From: Kaistia geumhonensis | Lineage (GTDB): Bacteria > Pseudomonadota > Alphaproteobacteria > Rhizobiales > Kaistiaceae | Length of the DNA stretch: 64,000 bases | Assembly (NCBI RefSeq): GCF_030815145.1 | Contig: NZ_JAUSWJ010000001.1 | Span: 186,001-250,000, forward strand | Direction of reading: 5' to 3' | In this document: positions 28,031-57,401 of the stretch, one piece after another | Layout: every line of letters starts with the position of its first letter | Numbering within the stretch: position 1 is the first letter of the stretch | Notes under the pieces: model-generated | Told to the model about the DNA's origin: nothing | What the model saw: only the letters and a program-made list of their open reading frames with translations | The model's database searches: none | Position numbers and translations under genes: made by a program

Positions 28031-28082
28031 TTCGGGGTCCGCGCGCCAGAATCATCCGGTACAAAACACGAACAACCTATCC

Positions 28083-46867: not shown

Positions 46868-47488
46868 TCAGCGGGGCCAGAGCGCCAGAAGCTGATCGGC
46901 GGTGAGGGTCTGGATCTGCTGGAAGAAGCGTGTGCGGTAAAGCGTCAGGACGGCGTCATGCGACGAATCCGTCGAGCCGCAGATCGCGTCCGTCACGATA
47001 TAGATCGGATAGCCGAGATCGACGGCATCAAGCACCGTCGCCAGCACGCATACGTCGGTCTCGGCGCCGGTGACGATGAGACCGTCGGCGCGGTGCTCGG
47101 CCAGAAATCCCGCGAGGCCCGTGCCCACAAAGGCCGAATAGACCGGTTTGTCGATCACCGTTCCGGCCCGGGCGATGAGATCGAGCGGCGATGCCAGCTC
47201 CAGAAGGGCGGGATCGATCAGCCCCAAGGTCGCCTGGCGCCAGCGCCTGTAATATGCCCGCCAGGTGCCGCCGACGTCTTCGGGTCGCTCCGGCGGGACG
47301 AAGCGCGAGAAGATGTTGCGCTCCGGCGCATGCTCGGCGACCCGCGCGATCGCCGGCAGGACCGCCTCGAGCCAAGGTGTCGGCCAAGGCCCGTCCTGAA
47401 GGAACAGGCGTTGGGCATCGACGCAGAGATGAAAGGTGGAGCGCGTCGGCTGCCAGGGAAACTCCTCCGATTTCAGCTCGAAGGCCAT
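46868..47488 (-). CDS. Isochorismatase-family cysteine hydrolase
   Basis: 206 residues from the ATG at 47488; an ATG at 47524 is possible but would overlap the receiver gene. The triad is Asp in HLCVDAQRLF, Lys in VIDKPVYSAF and Cys in GAETDVCVLATVLDAVDLGY (quoted in part TDVCVLAT). These enzymes hydrolyse amides such as ureidoacetate, nicotinamide or isochorismate. The specific substrate is unclear. It starts 8 bases after the receiver-sigma2 gene and could be co-transcribed with it. Confidence 0.86.
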   Translation of the reverse strand: MAFELKSEEFPWQPTRSTFHLCVDAQRLFLQDGPWPTPWLEAVLPAIARVAEHAPERNIFSRFVPPERPEDVGGTWRAYYRRWRQATLGLIDPALLELASPLDLIARAGTVIDKPVYSAFVGTGLAGFLAEHRADGLIVTGAETDVCVLATVLDAVDLGYPIYIVTDAICGSTDSSHDAVLTLYRTRFFQQIQTLTADQLLALWPR

Positions 47489-47495
47489 GGCACCG

Positions 47496-48086
47496 CTACG
47501 GCCTGGAGCCGCTCCGCTGGTCATGGCAGAGCTGCACGAGGCGCATCAGTTCCTCGCGCGGGCGTCCCTGCCAGGGCGTGAAGGTCGCGTCGATGGAGGC
47601 GAGCGCCATCTCCAGCGCACCCGCCACGAGTTCGTCCGCTTCTGCCTTCGTCGGTGCGAGGCTGCGGGCGAAGACGCGCAGCTCGGGAACGAGATCGGTG
47701 ATCCGCGGTGCGCCGGCGTTGCGGGCGACGGCGATCTGGTGCTGCTCGAAGACCGCGCCCACCAGCTTGTCCAGCCCCGACGACTTGCTGATGCGGGCGG
47801 CGTCGGCGAAGCGGGAGGGGATCGCCACCTCGTCATAGGCCGAGAAGAACACCAGCGGCGTCGCCAGATTCTTCAACTCGTCAGCGACTGGAAAGACGAG
47901 CTCGTCGCGCACATTGAGATCGAGCACCGCGATCTCCATCTCCTCGCGCCGGATGATCCGCGCCGCCTCGGCGATACTGGGCACCGGGCCAAGCACGACG
48001 GTGCCGGCCCTTTCCAGCGCCTGTGCGATGTCGTCGGCGATGAGATAATCGTCTTCGACGACGAGTACCCGCATGACAGTTGTCAC
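47496..48086 (-). CDS. Receiver domain fused to a C-terminal sigma-region-2-like domain
   Basis: 196 residues from a GTG at 48086 that overlaps the preceding small ORF's stop; an ATG at 48074 is an alternative. Residues 5-118 are a complete receiver domain: acidic pocket 11-13, phospho-acceptor Asp56 (VLDLNVRD), Ser82 (FFSAYDE) and Lys101. Residues about 129-190 read ITDLVPELRVFARSLAP then ADELVAGALEMALASI, which aligns without large gaps to region 2 of the EcfG encoded at 56.6-57.1 kb (LIPALRAFARSF, ADDLVQETLVKAIANI). There is no region 4. PhyR has the opposite order (sigma-like domain first). I infer a phosphorylation-controlled sigma mimic. Confidence 0.8.
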   Translation of the reverse strand: MTTVMRVLVVEDDYLIADDIAQALERAGTVVLGPVPSIAEAARIIRREEMEIAVLDLNVRDELVFPVADELKNLATPLVFFSAYDEVAIPSRFADAARISKSSGLDKLVGAVFEQHQIAVARNAGAPRITDLVPELRVFARSLAPTKAEADELVAGALEMALASIDATFTPWQGRPREELMRLVQLCHDQRSGSRP

Positions 48087-48259
48087 ATCAACGTCCTGAC
48101 ATTCGACGACATGGCCTTTCGGGTCCCGTTCTGGCGGCGCCAGCGAAGGGCGATGGCGAGGTCGAGCCTGCGGGCGAGTTCCAGCATTCGGGCGGGTGCA
48201 GGATCGTCGGCGGCTTCACAAGACGGCCCTGTGTCGTCTTCCTTGCTCCGATCAGCCAT
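48083..48259 (-). CDS. 58-residue small protein, possibly NepR-like
   Basis: Small ORF starting MADRSKEDDTGPSCEAAD. GAGG lies just before the ATG (48259), its leader is 40 bases from an EcfG-type promoter, and its TGA overlaps the GTG of the receiver-sigma2 gene, so coupling is likely. The segment PARMLELARRLDLAIAL resembles the second helix of NepR in this window (PERLLKLAEMLQNEL). A first NepR helix is not evident. I infer a reduced NepR-like partner for the downstream protein; the similarity is short and could be chance. Confidence 0.55.
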   Translation of the reverse strand: MADRSKEDDTGPSCEAADDPAPARMLELARRLDLAIALRWRRQNGTRKAMSSNVRTLM

Positions 48260-48298
48260 GTTCCTCGCCCTTTCCGCGATTTCGGTCGATCCAGCGGA

Positions 48299-48323
48299 AA
48301 CGATGGGGCCGACGGATTGTTCC
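48299..48323 (-). promoter_or_regulatory. EcfG-type promoter of the NepR-like/receiver-sigma2 genes
   Basis: On the minus strand GGAAC-N17-GTT, the alphaproteobacterial EcfG consensus. The -10 element lies 40 bases before the ATG of the small ORF. Confidence 0.78.
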
Positions 48324-48349: not shown

Positions 48350-48721
48350 TCAGCCGGCGATGGCATCGCGAAGCGCCAGAGCGATGACCCCGTCGCCCGC
48401 CGGCTTGTCGAAGCGGCGGACGCCTTCGAAGCGGCGCGGGATGATCGACCCGTCATATCCGGTCGCGAAGAGGAAAGGCACGCCCCGTTCGCGCAACAGG
48501 TCCGCCGCCGGAAAGACCATGTCGCCCTGCAGGTTGATGTCGAGGATCGACGCGTCGATCGACGCTTCGCAGCGGATCAGATGCAACGTCTTGTCCAGAG
48601 ATGCGGTCGGTCCGAGGACGGTGGCGCCCGCGTCGGTGAGTTCGCGGGCGAGATCGGTGGCGATCATGAACTCGTCCTCCGCCACGAGAATCCGCAAGCC
48701 GGACAGCGATTTCTCACGCAT
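48350..48721 (-). CDS. Single-domain response regulator of the FAT GUY type
   Basis: 123 residues, receiver domain only. Acidic pair at 15-16, phospho-acceptor Asp61 (ILDINLQGD), Thr87 and Lys106 are in place. VPFLFATGYD carries the PFxFATGY motif that defines FAT GUY regulators, several of which act in general-stress phosphorelays. Its ATG overlaps the kinase stop by 8 bases, so kinase and regulator form a coupled pair. It has no output domain and may serve as phosphate shuttle or sink. Confidence 0.92.
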   Translation of the reverse strand: MREKSLSGLRILVAEDEFMIATDLARELTDAGATVLGPTASLDKTLHLIRCEASIDASILDINLQGDMVFPAADLLRERGVPFLFATGYDGSIIPRRFEGVRRFDKPAGDGVIALALRDAIAG

Positions 48722-51716
48722 GGTCCTCCTCCCTCTTCAGACTGCTGGCGGACACCGGCAGAGAGATCGCGCAGCGGATCCCGTCCGGACGAAGCTCGTA
48801 TCGTGTCTCCGCATCGAGCTGGTATGGCAGCGCCCGCTCGATCAGTTCGCGCCCCTGGCCGCGCCCGAGCGCCTTCAGGTCCTGCGTCATCATCGGCACG
48901 CCGCTTTCGAGCCACTCGATGTCGAGGCAAGGTCGTCCGCGCGCGTCGGTCTCGCCCATCCTCCAGCGAATCGAGAGCTTCGCGCCCGGATGCCGCAGCG
49001 CGCCGTACTTCATCGCGTTGGTGGCCAGCTCATGCAATGCCATCGCGAGGATTTGCACGGTGCTCGATCTCAGCCGGACGCCCCGCGGGCCTTCCAGCAG
49101 GACGCGGCCTGAGCCGTCGTCCATCGCCGACAGTTCGGCGGAGAGGAGGTCATCGAAGGTGACGCGGTCATGGTCGCCGAGCCGCGACAGGAGGCCTTGG
49201 ATGCGGGCGAGGGCGTCCAGCCGGTCGAGAAAGCTCTCGCGGAACGTCTCGAGATTCGCGCTGCCGGCGATGGTGCGATCGACAACGGAGCGCACGATCC
49301 GAAGCAGGTTGCGGGTGCGATGCTGCAATTCGCCGACGAGTATCTGCAATCGCTCCTGCCAGTGCCGCCGCTCGGTGACGTCCCTCATCACGCCGATCAT
49401 CCTCAGGGGCGTGCCGTCGGTGTCGTAGAAGAAGCGCCCCTGGGCATCGAGCCAGCGCACGGTGCCATCCGGATGCAGCGTGCGGAACTCACAGGAAAAC
49501 GGGTGGCGCCCATCGCGCGCGGCGATCAGCGCCGCCTCGGCCGCGTCGAGGTCCTCCGGGTGAACCCGCGCCCGCCATGCCTCGTAGCTCGGCGCGACTT
49601 CGCCAACGCGATAGCCCTGCTGGCGATAATGTTCGTCGGACCATTCGACTTCGTCGGTCACGAGGTGCCAGTCCCACGTCGCAAGCCGCCCCGTTTCGAG
49701 CGCGAGGCGCAGCCGCTCCTCCTCGCCGCGCAGGCGCTCCTCGAAGAGCTTCTTCTCGGTGAAGTCCTGGCCGATACCGCCGATGCTTTCGACCTTCCCG
49801 TCGCGGCCGAACATCGGAAAATCCGTGTTGCGCAGCCAGCGGATGCCGCCGTCGAAGGGGCGGCGGATACGGTATTCGAACGCGACCTGCTCGCCGTTCC
49901 GGGCGCGCGCGATGAAGCCGAGCGCCATCGGGCGATCCTCGGGCACGATCAGGTCCGTCCATGTGCGGAAGTTGTCGCCTTCCAGCGCCTCGCCGACGCC
50001 GAGCCCGTAGATCTGCTCAAATGCCGGCGTCAGATACTGCCATTGCAGCGTTTCCGCATCGCGGATCCACAGCACGTCCTGCGTCGCCTCGCCGAAGCGG
50101 CGCAGAAGCTCCTCGCTCTCGCGCAGCGTCTCTTCGGCCCGCTTGGCGTCGTCGATATCGGCCACGACCATCACCGCGCCGCTCACGGCTCCGGCCGCGT
50201 CGCGCAGCGGCACGGCCGATATGCGCGTCCAGACCTCGCCACCGCTGTCGTCGCGATAGAGCATTTCGAGGCCGGGAACGACGTCTTCGCCGCGAAGCGC
50301 CCGCGCCGCCGGGAAGTTCTCCGGACGGACAGGCAATCCGTCCTCGATCGGCGGTCGCCAGCGCCATTGGCGCTCAGGACTGCGGGAGGGAATGATCGCA
50401 TCGGGCAGGAAGCGCCGCATCATCGGATTGAGGCGGGACATATGGCCAGTCCGGTCCATCACCCCGACGCCGACCGGCAGCGCATCGAAGGTGCGCCGCA
50501 GCCGTTCCTCGCTGTCGCGCAATTCGCTCTCGATGCGCTTGCGCTCGGTGATGTCGATATGCGCGCCGACCACGCGCAACGCGTTGCCGTCGGCGTCGCG
50601 CTCGATATCGGCGCGGGCAAAGATCCAGCGCACCGCCCCATCGCTCTGGCGGATGATACGGTATTCGTTCTCGTAGGACCCTGCGTCGCCCGCGATTGCA
50701 TCGAGAAAGCGCTGCTCGGCCGCCACCCGGTCTTCGGGATGGAGGCGGCTCAGCCATTCGGCATGCGACTCGCGGACTTTCTCGCCAGGCATGCCGTGCA
50801 GGCGGCGATATTCGGGCGAACGCTCGCCGACCAGCCCGTGCCGCACGTCGACCTTGATGCCGCCGATGCCGCCGATCCGCTGCACGCGCGCAAGCTCGGC
50901 CTCGCGCTCGCGCAGCGCCACCTCGGCGGCCTTGCGACGTGTCACGTCGAGATTGACGCCGAACCATTTGCGGATCGTGCCGTCCGCGCTTCTGATCGGC
51001 ACGGCCCGGACATTGGTCCAGGACCACCCGCCGTCCGAACGGGAGAGCCTGAACTCGATATCGACATTCTCGCCGGTCACGAGGGCCTGCCGCCATCGCT
51101 CGCCTGCGTCTTCGCGGTCTTCGGGATGGACGGCGGACAGCCAGGCATCGACCGTCGGCGCGGCATTGCTGAGCCCGGTGAAGGCGTGCCAGGTCGGACT
51201 CCAGATTGGAATCCCGTCGGCGTCGGTCTCCCAGAAGGCCTGCGCGAATCCGGCCATCAACTCGCGGAAGCCGGCTTCCGCATCGGGGGTGGATGGTGCC
51301 GCCTGCCGGGCAAGGGTCGCGACGAGGCCGACGATGGCGCCATCGAGAGCCCGGGCCGGGCTGAGCGCTACGGTGTAGCGCGGCTGCGTGACACGTCCCG
51401 CCTGGAGATCGCCGAGCGCAACATCCTCGACGATGCTTGGCCGCCCTGCGAGGACGCTGTCAGCGGCGGACTCGATCACCGGCCAAGCCTTCTGCCAAAC
51501 CTCGGCCAACGTCCGGCCGAGCCCGGAGGCGCCGGCGCCGAACAGCGCTTCGAAGCCGTCATTCACGATGGTCGTGCGGCCCGGTCCCCAGGCGAGCATG
51601 GCGGGGAGGGCGTTGTCGAGCACACTGCCGGCGGCGAGCTTCAGCTCGGCGGCCCAGTGCGAGGAGGCACCAAGCGGCGTGCTGGCCCAGTCGAACGCCC
51701 TGACGGCTTGTGCCAT
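48714..51716 (-). CDS. Multi-PAS HWE-family sensor histidine kinase
   Basis: 1000 residues from the ATG at 51716; a GTG at 51755 with AGGA 6 bases upstream is an alternative. No membrane segment is visible, so it is probably cytoplasmic. About six PAS domains follow one another, several ending in clear PAC motifs (VNLDVTRRKAAE, VGAHIDITERKR, GQDFTEKKLFEE, IGVMRDVTERRH). The kinase core has the phospho-acceptor His799 in ELQHRTRNLL, the N-box His895 in LHELATNAMKYG, and W935-L-E in DIEWLESG, which together define the HWE class. Its likely partners are the coupled FAT GUY regulator and the receiver-sigma2 protein. Confidence 0.92.
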   Translation of the reverse strand: MAQAVRAFDWASTPLGASSHWAAELKLAAGSVLDNALPAMLAWGPGRTTIVNDGFEALFGAGASGLGRTLAEVWQKAWPVIESAADSVLAGRPSIVEDVALGDLQAGRVTQPRYTVALSPARALDGAIVGLVATLARQAAPSTPDAEAGFRELMAGFAQAFWETDADGIPIWSPTWHAFTGLSNAAPTVDAWLSAVHPEDREDAGERWRQALVTGENVDIEFRLSRSDGGWSWTNVRAVPIRSADGTIRKWFGVNLDVTRRKAAEVALREREAELARVQRIGGIGGIKVDVRHGLVGERSPEYRRLHGMPGEKVRESHAEWLSRLHPEDRVAAEQRFLDAIAGDAGSYENEYRIIRQSDGAVRWIFARADIERDADGNALRVVGAHIDITERKRIESELRDSEERLRRTFDALPVGVGVMDRTGHMSRLNPMMRRFLPDAIIPSRSPERQWRWRPPIEDGLPVRPENFPAARALRGEDVVPGLEMLYRDDSGGEVWTRISAVPLRDAAGAVSGAVMVVADIDDAKRAEETLRESEELLRRFGEATQDVLWIRDAETLQWQYLTPAFEQIYGLGVGEALEGDNFRTWTDLIVPEDRPMALGFIARARNGEQVAFEYRIRRPFDGGIRWLRNTDFPMFGRDGKVESIGGIGQDFTEKKLFEERLRGEEERLRLALETGRLATWDWHLVTDEVEWSDEHYRQQGYRVGEVAPSYEAWRARVHPEDLDAAEAALIAARDGRHPFSCEFRTLHPDGTVRWLDAQGRFFYDTDGTPLRMIGVMRDVTERRHWQERLQILVGELQHRTRNLLRIVRSVVDRTIAGSANLETFRESFLDRLDALARIQGLLSRLGDHDRVTFDDLLSAELSAMDDGSGRVLLEGPRGVRLRSSTVQILAMALHELATNAMKYGALRHPGAKLSIRWRMGETDARGRPCLDIEWLESGVPMMTQDLKALGRGQGRELIERALPYQLDAETRYELRPDGIRCAISLPVSASSLKREEDHA

Positions 51717-51756
51717 GGCTCCGTGGCCCTGAGGCCATGTCGAAGCAGTGTCCACG

Positions 51757-52062: not shown

Positions 52063-52087
52063 GGAACGATCGCTGGTGTCGATTGTT
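52063..52087 (+). promoter_or_regulatory. EcfG-type promoter of the 45-residue protein and gcd
   Basis: GGAAC-N17-GTT, with the -10 element 29 bases before the ATG at 52117. The sequence continues CC, making GGAAC-N17-GTTCC, which reads as the same promoter on the minus strand too (towards the kinase, about 350 bases away). Confidence 0.8.
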
Positions 52088-52116
52088 CCTCGATTTCAAC
52101 CGCCGGGAGTTTCCGC

Positions 52117-56562: not shown

Positions 56563-57141
56563 CTAGCGGGGGGATATCCGCCCGGAAGACGACGCCTCGC
56601 TCGCGAGCCAGTCCGACGATTCGACGAGTGCGCCGGCCGACCGTTCGCCAAGCATCTCCAGAACGGCGCCGCGGGCGCGGTTGAGGCGGCTTTTCACCGT
56701 GCCGATGGCGCAGCCACAGACCTCCGCGGCCTCTTCATAGGAGACACCGTGCATGCCGATCAGGACCAGAACTTCGCGATGCGACGGTGAAAGCCGTTCG
56801 ATGGCGGCTTCGACCTCCCGCCCTCGCAGCGTCCACTCCTGCGTCGCCAGCACGATCGGCTGCCCGGAGACGCAATCCGCGTCGCCCGGCGCCTCGCGCT
56901 TCGACATGCGGATTCGCGTGTAGAAGGTGTTGCGCATGATCGTGAAAAGCCACGACTTGAGGCGCGTGCCTTCCTCATATTTGTGGATGTTGGCGATCGC
57001 CTTGACCAGGGTTTCCTGCACCAGGTCGTCGGCGTCGTTCGGATTGCGGCAGAACGAGCGCGCGAAGGCGCGCAACGCCGGAATCAGCGCGACGACCGAG
57101 TCGACCTCGCCATTCTGACCGTCCATCAGGTTGAGGTTCAC
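56563..57141 (-). CDS. ecfG: General-stress ECF sigma factor EcfG
   Basis: 192 residues from a GTG at 57141 with GGGAG 8 bases upstream; starts at 57150 (GTG) and 57126 (ATG) are in frame. Region 2 is LIPALRAFARSFCRNPNDADDLVQ (quoted in part) with WLFTIMRNTFYTRIR; region 4 is LSPSHREVLVLIGMHGVSYEEAAEVCGC followed by GTVKSRLNRAR, the typical EcfG/Sig15-type pair. It directs RNA polymerase to GGAAC-N17-GTT promoters. It lies downstream of nepR on the same strand. PhyR is not in the window. Confidence 0.92.
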   Translation of the reverse strand: MNLNLMDGQNGEVDSVVALIPALRAFARSFCRNPNDADDLVQETLVKAIANIHKYEEGTRLKSWLFTIMRNTFYTRIRMSKREAPGDADCVSGQPIVLATQEWTLRGREVEAAIERLSPSHREVLVLIGMHGVSYEEAAEVCGCAIGTVKSRLNRARGAVLEMLGERSAGALVESSDWLASEASSSGRISPR

Positions 57142-57212
57142 GTGGATCACTCCCGCCGACTGCCCCGCAGTGGGAATGCGCCGCCGACGTGAGAGTTCCG
57201 TAGCAGAGGGGC

Positions 57213-57401
57213 TTAGTTCGGCCGACGCCGCTGGCGGCGGATCGAAAGCTCGTTCTGAAGCATCTCCGCGAGCTTCAGGAGACGCTCGGGCACTCGCTCG
57301 CCCTCGATCGCTTCGAGCAGGGTGCCGAGCCGATCATCGACGGCGGCCTCTTCATGCCGATCCGTCCTCGCCTCGTCCTCGTCGGGAGACATCGTCGCCA
57401 T
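57213..57401 (-). CDS. nepR: Anti-sigma factor NepR
   Basis: 62 residues from the ATG at 57401; an ATG at 57392 is also possible. The core VDDRLGTLLEAIEGERVPERLLKLAEMLQNEL (quoted in part) has the two amphipathic helices separated by a VPER turn that typify NepR. It binds EcfG until phosphorylated PhyR takes it away. It lies immediately upstream of ecfG, the usual order. A weak autoregulatory site GGAAC-N17-ATT is found at 57175-57199 between the two genes. Confidence 0.82.
   Translation of the reverse strand: MATMSPDEDEARTDRHEEAAVDDRLGTLLEAIEGERVPERLLKLAEMLQNELSIRRQRRRPN

Follow-up and report, generated by a model that had tools for sequence, protein, structure and literature searches.

The window, a stretch of 64 kb of the genome of Kaistia geumhonensis, harbours a pair of genes encoding a small NepR-like protein and a protein in which a receiver domain is followed by a sigma2-like domain. 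These proteins are called mini-NepR and RS2 (receiver-sigma2), both names being coined in this analysis. The computations cover the make-up of the domains, their homology, the match of the promoter, and the recurrence and co-occurrence of the genes. We give somewhat better than even chances to the proposal that RS2, once phosphorylated, presents a sigma2 decoy to the helix of a NepR-type protein, as an accessory partner switch driven by EcfG. Pairs of this kind are found repeatedly in relatives, and the RS2 pair may therefore be an unrecognised second way of stress-gene control. The observation of the pair in an earlier note on this DNA was right and understated; its interpretation is partly supported, and the functional reading of the module is plausible from the sequences.

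The mini-nepR-RS2 locus and its two proteins

The gene order in the window is HWE kinase, single-domain regulator, promoter, mini-nepR and RS2 (Table 1). The earlier note had described an EcfG-type promoter 5' of a 58-codon ORF, the TGA of which overlaps the GTG of an ORF of 196 residues. Both features were found, and the overlap of mini-nepR and RS2 amounts to four bases. The start codon of the HWE kinase ORF is ambiguous, and its longest reading extends to 53054. Downstream, an isochorismatase-family ORF (46868-47524) shares 29 bases with the end of RS2; it may in fact start further inside. The EcfG and NepR with which the pair had been compared are indeed present in the window, but as second copies. 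The canonical set, consisting of PhyR, EcfG and the sole PF18557 match at E ≤ 10 in the genome, is located at C1:2161349-2162192, ~1.9 Mb away from the locus in the window. Another ECF-like factor, the third of the genome (G000:C1:366469-366630, L183), scores above the PhyR_sigma2 cut-off.

Table 1 Features of the mini-nepR-RS2 locus and linked genes (positions in the window)
Feature	Position	Strand	Basis
EcfG-type promoter GGAAC-N16-CGTT of the mini-nepR/RS2 pair	48299..48323	(-)	pattern match; same spacing in Bosea MAG orthologue
mini-NepR, 58 aa; NepR second-helix-like core APARMLELARRLDLAIA, first helix absent	48083..48259	(-)	profile alignment to NepR; dN/dS 0.28 vs Bosea MAG
RS2, 196 aa, GTG start; receiver then sigma2-like domain	47496..48086	(-)	
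RS2 receiver domain, E11, D12, D56, K101	47727..48086	(-)	
RS2 sigma2-like domain, three helices	47511..47702	(-)	PF22029; model helices; profile comparison with EcfG region 2
Single-domain response regulator P0005	48350..48721	(-)	
Multi-PAS HWE histidine kinase, HRTRN motif	48714..51752	(-)	PF07536 2e-14; PAS families
EcfG-type promoter site ~310 nt 5' of the assumed kinase start, within the longest kinase reading	52065..52089	(-)	
Second EcfG (EcfG2-type)	56563..57150	(-)	PF04542 7.9e-18; EcfG2 clade in tree
NepR2, first-helix-like stretch, upstream of ecfG2	about 57213..57401	(-)	start inferred from G013 orthologue

RS2 has a receiver fold with the acidic pair, Asp and Lys present, and its match with PF00072 (30.0 bits) lies just below the cut-off. 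Counting from the GTG start codon, Asp56 is the phospho-acceptor and Lys101 the conserved lysine. The receiver, described earlier as intact, was confirmed to be so: its Asp, Lys and acidic pair, together with nine sigma2 residues, are invariant in an alignment of 25 RS2 sequences. The C-terminus (residues 129-180) matches PF22029 PhyR_sigma2 with an E of 4.7e-6 and 27.0 bits (cut-off 27), and with 28.3 bits in the whole-genome scan. This family is matched at E ≤ 0.01 by 24 of the 25 RS2 family members; EcfG also matches it, not RS2 and PhyR alone. The search against PF04542 suggested in the earlier note gave no match of RS2 at E ≤ 1; PF22029 and a profile comparison matched instead. In the latter, the C-terminal domain of the family aligned with EcfG region 2 over 60 columns with a score of 70.8, while 100 column shuffles reached at most 17.7, bearing out the likeness to EcfG seen earlier. 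The RS2 sigma2 profile aligns with region 2 of both EcfG and PhyR, the score being higher with EcfG. RS2 lacks region 4 (sigma4), one of the two regions (2 and 4) required of ECF15/EcfG. The reversed order and reduction to sigma2 that had been claimed are thus supported by the PF22029 match and by the domain order, receiver first and sigma2 second. The predicted structure has confident C-terminal helices at residues 128-142, 146-166 and 175-191; structural matches to the whole model span residues 1-124 only.

The 25 RS2 sequences were scored at those positions that ≥ 75% of 29 EcfG sequences share. P9, L11, R12, A15, D26, L28, V29, A36, W52 and L53 are kept in 23-25 of these. D27, Q30, F43, T47 and F54 are gone (0/25 each), and N48 (1/25), A51 (2/25), T55 (2/25) and N59 (4/25) mostly so. 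A13, S17, K35 and W37 are likewise lost. Several of the positions lost in RS2 we take to be contacts with core RNAP or the promoter (regions 2.2-2.4); A13, S17, K35 and W37 are not known to have a contact role. In PhyR, D27, Q30, T47, T55 and N59 are all lost, and F43 is retained in 21 of 26 sequences. The pattern of loss in RS2 fits a mimic, which would have kept the sigma fold but not the sigma function. Pairwise dN/dS of the whole RS2 gene is 0.10-0.26 (nine pairs, with sequences shared between pairs).

The NepR-likeness of the small ORF held in profile alignment, but not in the search with the Pfam NepR family PF18557, which gave no match with mini-NepR in the genome scan even at E ≤ 10. 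A profile of 15 mini-NepR sequences (from 15 of 36 RS2 loci) aligns with canonical NepR (27 sequences) at the EPVPDRFLxLL motif, with a score of 32.4, a probability of 85.4 and a P of 5.8e-6; 150 shuffles scored at most 17.5 and the reversed profile 10.6. By this comparison the motif of the second NepR helix is present in mini-NepR. The first helix (NepR consensus IGxxLRAxY) was not seen in the mini-NepR alignment and lies outside the aligned part of the profile comparison. The score of mini-NepR with NepR2, which keeps a first-helix-like stretch, is 52.9 and thus above that with canonical NepR, a closeness that is partly due to selection because the NepR2 set was largely found with the mini-NepR profile. 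Pairwise dN/dS values of 0.28-0.41 (nine pairs, sequences again shared) indicate that mini-nepR is under purifying selection.

Distribution, promoters and neighbouring genes

Full-length RS2 was found in 3 of 28 genomes of the family of the window, all in its own genus. Of the 397 genomes sampled across the order, 12 have it, with a gap in E from 2.5e-63 to 1.9e-35 (best 8 candidates per genome scored). A class sample of 385 genomes contained three more RS2 beyond the window's own among the matches listed (E ≤ 1e-32). Scanning of a genome collection yielded at least 593 candidate stretches. Among the best 80 of 280 confirmed stretches, at least 23 are RS2 by reading of the C-terminus, and one more locus holds RS2 elsewhere in it. 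The genera represented are Ensifer, Mesorhizobium, Aquibium, Shinella, Aquamicrobium, Methylobrevis and Bosea. Plasmid records matching the whole of RS2 numbered 228, most of them presumably via the receiver. Five of six plasmid regions examined are RS2 (Ensifer canadensis, Martelella, two Paracoccus and Roseivivax), for which the annotation in these records does not go beyond response regulator or hypothetical protein; the sixth, of Rhizobium BG4, is not RS2. In Paracoccus yeei, two short annotated ORFs 5' of RS2 (L226, 3317-3466 and 3604-3768) resemble pieces of one broken single-domain receiver.

The two-gene order and the small ORF are conserved in relatives: a short ORF with a core like IPPRMLVLAKRLQAAL is located directly 5' of RS2 on the same strand in 18 of 36 RS2 loci. 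Several Mesorhizobium loci without this upstream ORF harbour a separate gene with nearly the core of the window, e.g. APSRMLELARRLDTAIALRARK, and these separate genes mostly have an EcfG-type site of their own. In a profile search of the locus ORFs (≥ 17 bits), a NepR-like gene was found in 31 of 36 RS2 loci compared to 0 of 56 receiver-only controls. Initially 1 of 57 receiver-only loci matched at this threshold, and that locus itself holds RS2. Sixteen of the 21 loci outside the training of the mini-NepR profile also match; no match of ≥ 17 bits was obtained in five of the 36 (L081, L088, L174, L219 and L220). The loci are unequal in length, the window being 64 kb and three loci 3.6 kb, and related genomes are not independent. 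Some of the matches counted as NepR-like may in fact be NepR2, since they contain a stretch resembling the first helix. On the Ensifer canadensis plasmid a NepR-like gene precedes RS2 (33.4 bits). Weak NepR-like genes are found 3' of RS2 on two Paracoccus plasmids, scoring 17.5 and 11.4 bits, and, at 10.8 bits, in two genomes that belong to another order. The Roseivivax and Martelella plasmid loci (L223, L225) gave no NepR-like match. Genome-wide, 10 of 12 RS2 genomes have a NepR-like match compared to 11 of 385 others (best 15 candidates per genome scored), and the Fisher p of 9e-13 is too optimistic because of kinship and training-set overlap. In L169 (G323), ~130 nt 5' of RS2, the mini-nepR frame is interrupted by an in-frame stop within the variable N-terminal part; behind a GTG, its NepR-like core remains open. 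NepR-like short genes also occur in six genomes without a full-length RS2 match in the order survey (L233-L238, from G371, G310, G328, G195, G169 and G216); neither EcfG nor RS2 scored > 60 bits in these 3-kb stretches.

In 28 of the 36 loci an EcfG-type site lies at most 330 nt 5' of RS2, whereas 4.1% of windows drawn at random from these loci contain one. In all five plasmid RS2 loci (5/5) the promoter pattern is absent within 350 nt. The strict pattern occurs 46 times in the whole genome and the reversed control pattern 33 times, so that the strict pattern alone is weak evidence; position, strand and recurrence in relatives count. A looser EcfG-type pattern has 7 sites in the window versus 1.0 expected, and 0 of 100 shuffles reached 7. 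The window may therefore be a stress-regulon cluster; the six further sites are at 28074, 52065, 55260, 55846, 55884 and 57489.

HWE kinases were found in 25 of the 36 RS2 stretches examined, a count made without a control set. In M. ciceri WSM1271 (L112) and in Bosea G007, a kinase of CheB-CheR-PAS-HWE make-up by Pfam and a single-domain regulator are divergent from mini-nepR-RS2, and Aquibium L063 shows a similar divergent arrangement, judged by its ORFs. Fusion kinases of the CheB-CheR-PAS-HWE type adjoin RS2 in L112 (6541-9741) and L173 (10780-13872) by Pfam, and those beside RS2 in L222 (406-3513) and L225 (514-3621) are annotated just as CheR family methyltransferase. Proximity of EcfG was rejected as a specific mark of RS2, EcfG being present in 8 of 42 RS2 loci and in 10 of 56 control receiver loci. 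The eight EcfG copies near RS2 belong to a different clade from canonical EcfG, which is linked to NepR (SH-aLRT 100). In 9 of 12 RS2 genomes, NepR2 shares a contig with RS2 at a distance of 8-27 kb; EcfG2 adjoins NepR2 in six of these, lies ~10 kb away in a seventh and was not seen in the short stretches of the other two. In Paracoccus yeei a weak NepR-like gene is located directly 5' of an EcfG-type factor, beside RS2.

Origin and possible function of the pair

RS2 receivers formed one group (SH-aLRT 88) in a quick tree comprising 25 RS2, 14 of 26 PhyR, 28 of 57 control receivers and P0005. The receivers nearest to RS2 by tree path are single-domain regulators, and PhyR is far away. The best NCBIfam model for RS2 is PhyR, with 50.8 bits far under the cut-off of 240. 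Among PDB sequence matches of RS2, PhyR chains come after the top match, and SdrG chain 5ieb is included. In sigma2 trees the window RS2 and its closest orthologue are placed beside PhyR on long branches, and a single origin of all RS2 sigma2 domains was not rejected (p-AU 0.17). These sigma2 trees are too short to fix the source of the domain. An origin of RS2 independent of PhyR appears likely from these comparisons. The view of RS2 as a permuted PhyR has the best NCBIfam model and the sigma2 trees in its favour, but a simple permutation is not favoured by the receiver tree and by the higher sigma2 score with EcfG. In Rhizobium sp. BG4 (L221, 3929-4963), a single-domain receiver gene is directly followed on one strand by a gene for a full EcfG-like factor, possibly a pre-fusion arrangement. 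That tandem receiver and EcfG2 genes were the precursor of RS2 is an idea resting on this one case; in control loci with EcfG, EcfG is on the opposite strand in 7 of 10.

We infer phosphorylation, gating, binding, target and feedback sign of the RS2 switch as follows. At rest, the receiver of RS2 would hold the sigma2 decoy. An HWE kinase, probably an adjoining one, would phosphorylate Asp56, perhaps via the neighbouring single-domain regulator, upon which the decoy would become available to the second helix of a protein of the NepR type. The likeliest partner would be the co-encoded mini-NepR, reduced to this second helix, and the likeliest further target NepR2 of the linked EcfG2. The EcfG-type promoter in front of the pair would make it, in this genome, a feedback arm for the general stress response. 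The two NepR helices are said, from work of Campagne in 2012, to extend over sigma2 and sigma4. If it is the second helix that sits on sigma2, both partners are predicted to have been reduced to the same half interface. Negative feedback by mini-NepR would be another simple role. A wider hypothesis, held more tentatively, is that phosphorylation-gated sigma mimicry arose twice in Alphaproteobacteria, and that RS2 (a fusion of a single-domain receiver and an EcfG-like region 2), the one-helix NepR, HWE kinase, NepR2 and EcfG2 make up a second, half-interface partner switch controlling the non-canonical EcfG branch, for which regulators have so far been lacking.

The main competing explanation is that mini-NepR is a damper, competing with NepR for PhyR or blocking RS2 and so limiting the response. 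Without the first helix, mini-NepR may bind mimics without inhibiting a sigma factor, and a damping role was proposed, in the accessible text of PMC4814048, for a NepR paralogue that stress induces in Methylobacterium extorquens. However, the pairing of mini-NepR with RS2 suggests RS2, and not PhyR, as its partner, and we regard a damper as possible, though rather doubtful. It is improbable that RS2 is a second PhyR acting directly on canonical NepR, with mini-NepR merely stabilising RS2: sigma4 is absent and the linked genes are NepR2 and EcfG2 rather than the canonical set, even though the sigma2 domain aligns with region 2 of PhyR as well as of EcfG and PhyR is the best NCBIfam model.

The nearness of the receiver to single-domain regulators and the Pfam score at the cut-off would suit a sigma2 part that is fading away in a protein working as an ordinary single-domain regulator. 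We consider such a remnant very unlikely in view of the nine invariant sigma2 residues, the low whole-gene dN/dS range and the confident three-helix model. Region 4 is absent and conserved EcfG positions are lost, some of them presumably core or promoter contacts, which leaves next to no probability for RS2 as a true sigma fragment working with a separate sigma4, like RsoA with SigO. Split sigma factors as such do exist (PMC8103513, available part), and a sigma2-only EcfG paralogue, Mext_0132, is named in the accessible text of PMC4814048. The phosphorylation-gated decoy is the preferred explanation.

Comparison with known systems

Many species have extra EcfG copies of unclear control. In R. 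etli, a second EcfG is located on a plasmid and the only putative NepR so far on the chromosome, according to the available part of a review (PMC8103513). The recurring module, a reversed, sigma2-only mimic together with a one-helix NepR, has links to NepR2/EcfG2 genes in several genomes and is a concrete candidate for regulating such extra EcfG. No description of a receiver-sigma2 protein was found in the available parts of the open-licence literature. SdrG (5ieb) and MrrA (PMC5964349, available part) resemble RS2 in receiver type but have no output domain. Mext_0132 has an EcfG-type sigma2 without sigma4, like RS2, but a receiver is not mentioned for it in the accessible text (PMC4814048).

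The mini-NepR protein resembles NepR (PF18557) in its second-helix-like core but differs from it in lacking the first helix and a Pfam match. In M. extorquens, two NepR homologues appear to bind PhyR and none of the EcfG proteins, and one of the two has an EcfG-dependent promoter, for which feedback was proposed (PMC4814048, accessible text). These paralogues resemble mini-NepR as response-linked NepR homologues, one of them EcfG-driven; a linked receiver-sigma2 protein is not mentioned in that text. The nepR2-ecfG1 genes of Sphingopyxis share with the pair the gene order, the 4-base overlap and a GGAAC-N16-CGTT site (PMC7083833, available part).

RS2 resembles PhyR in combining a receiver with a degenerate sigma domain, and EcfG positions D27, Q30, T47 and N59 are lost in both (N59 in 21 of 25 RS2). 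PhyR, however, has its sigma-like domain (sigma2 and sigma4) N-terminal to the receiver, whereas in RS2 the order is reversed and sigma4 is lacking. The receiver of RS2 is also closer by path to single-domain regulators than to PhyR, and its sigma2 domain scores higher with EcfG. An RS2 switch of the kind proposed would show how little interface such a partner switch needs.
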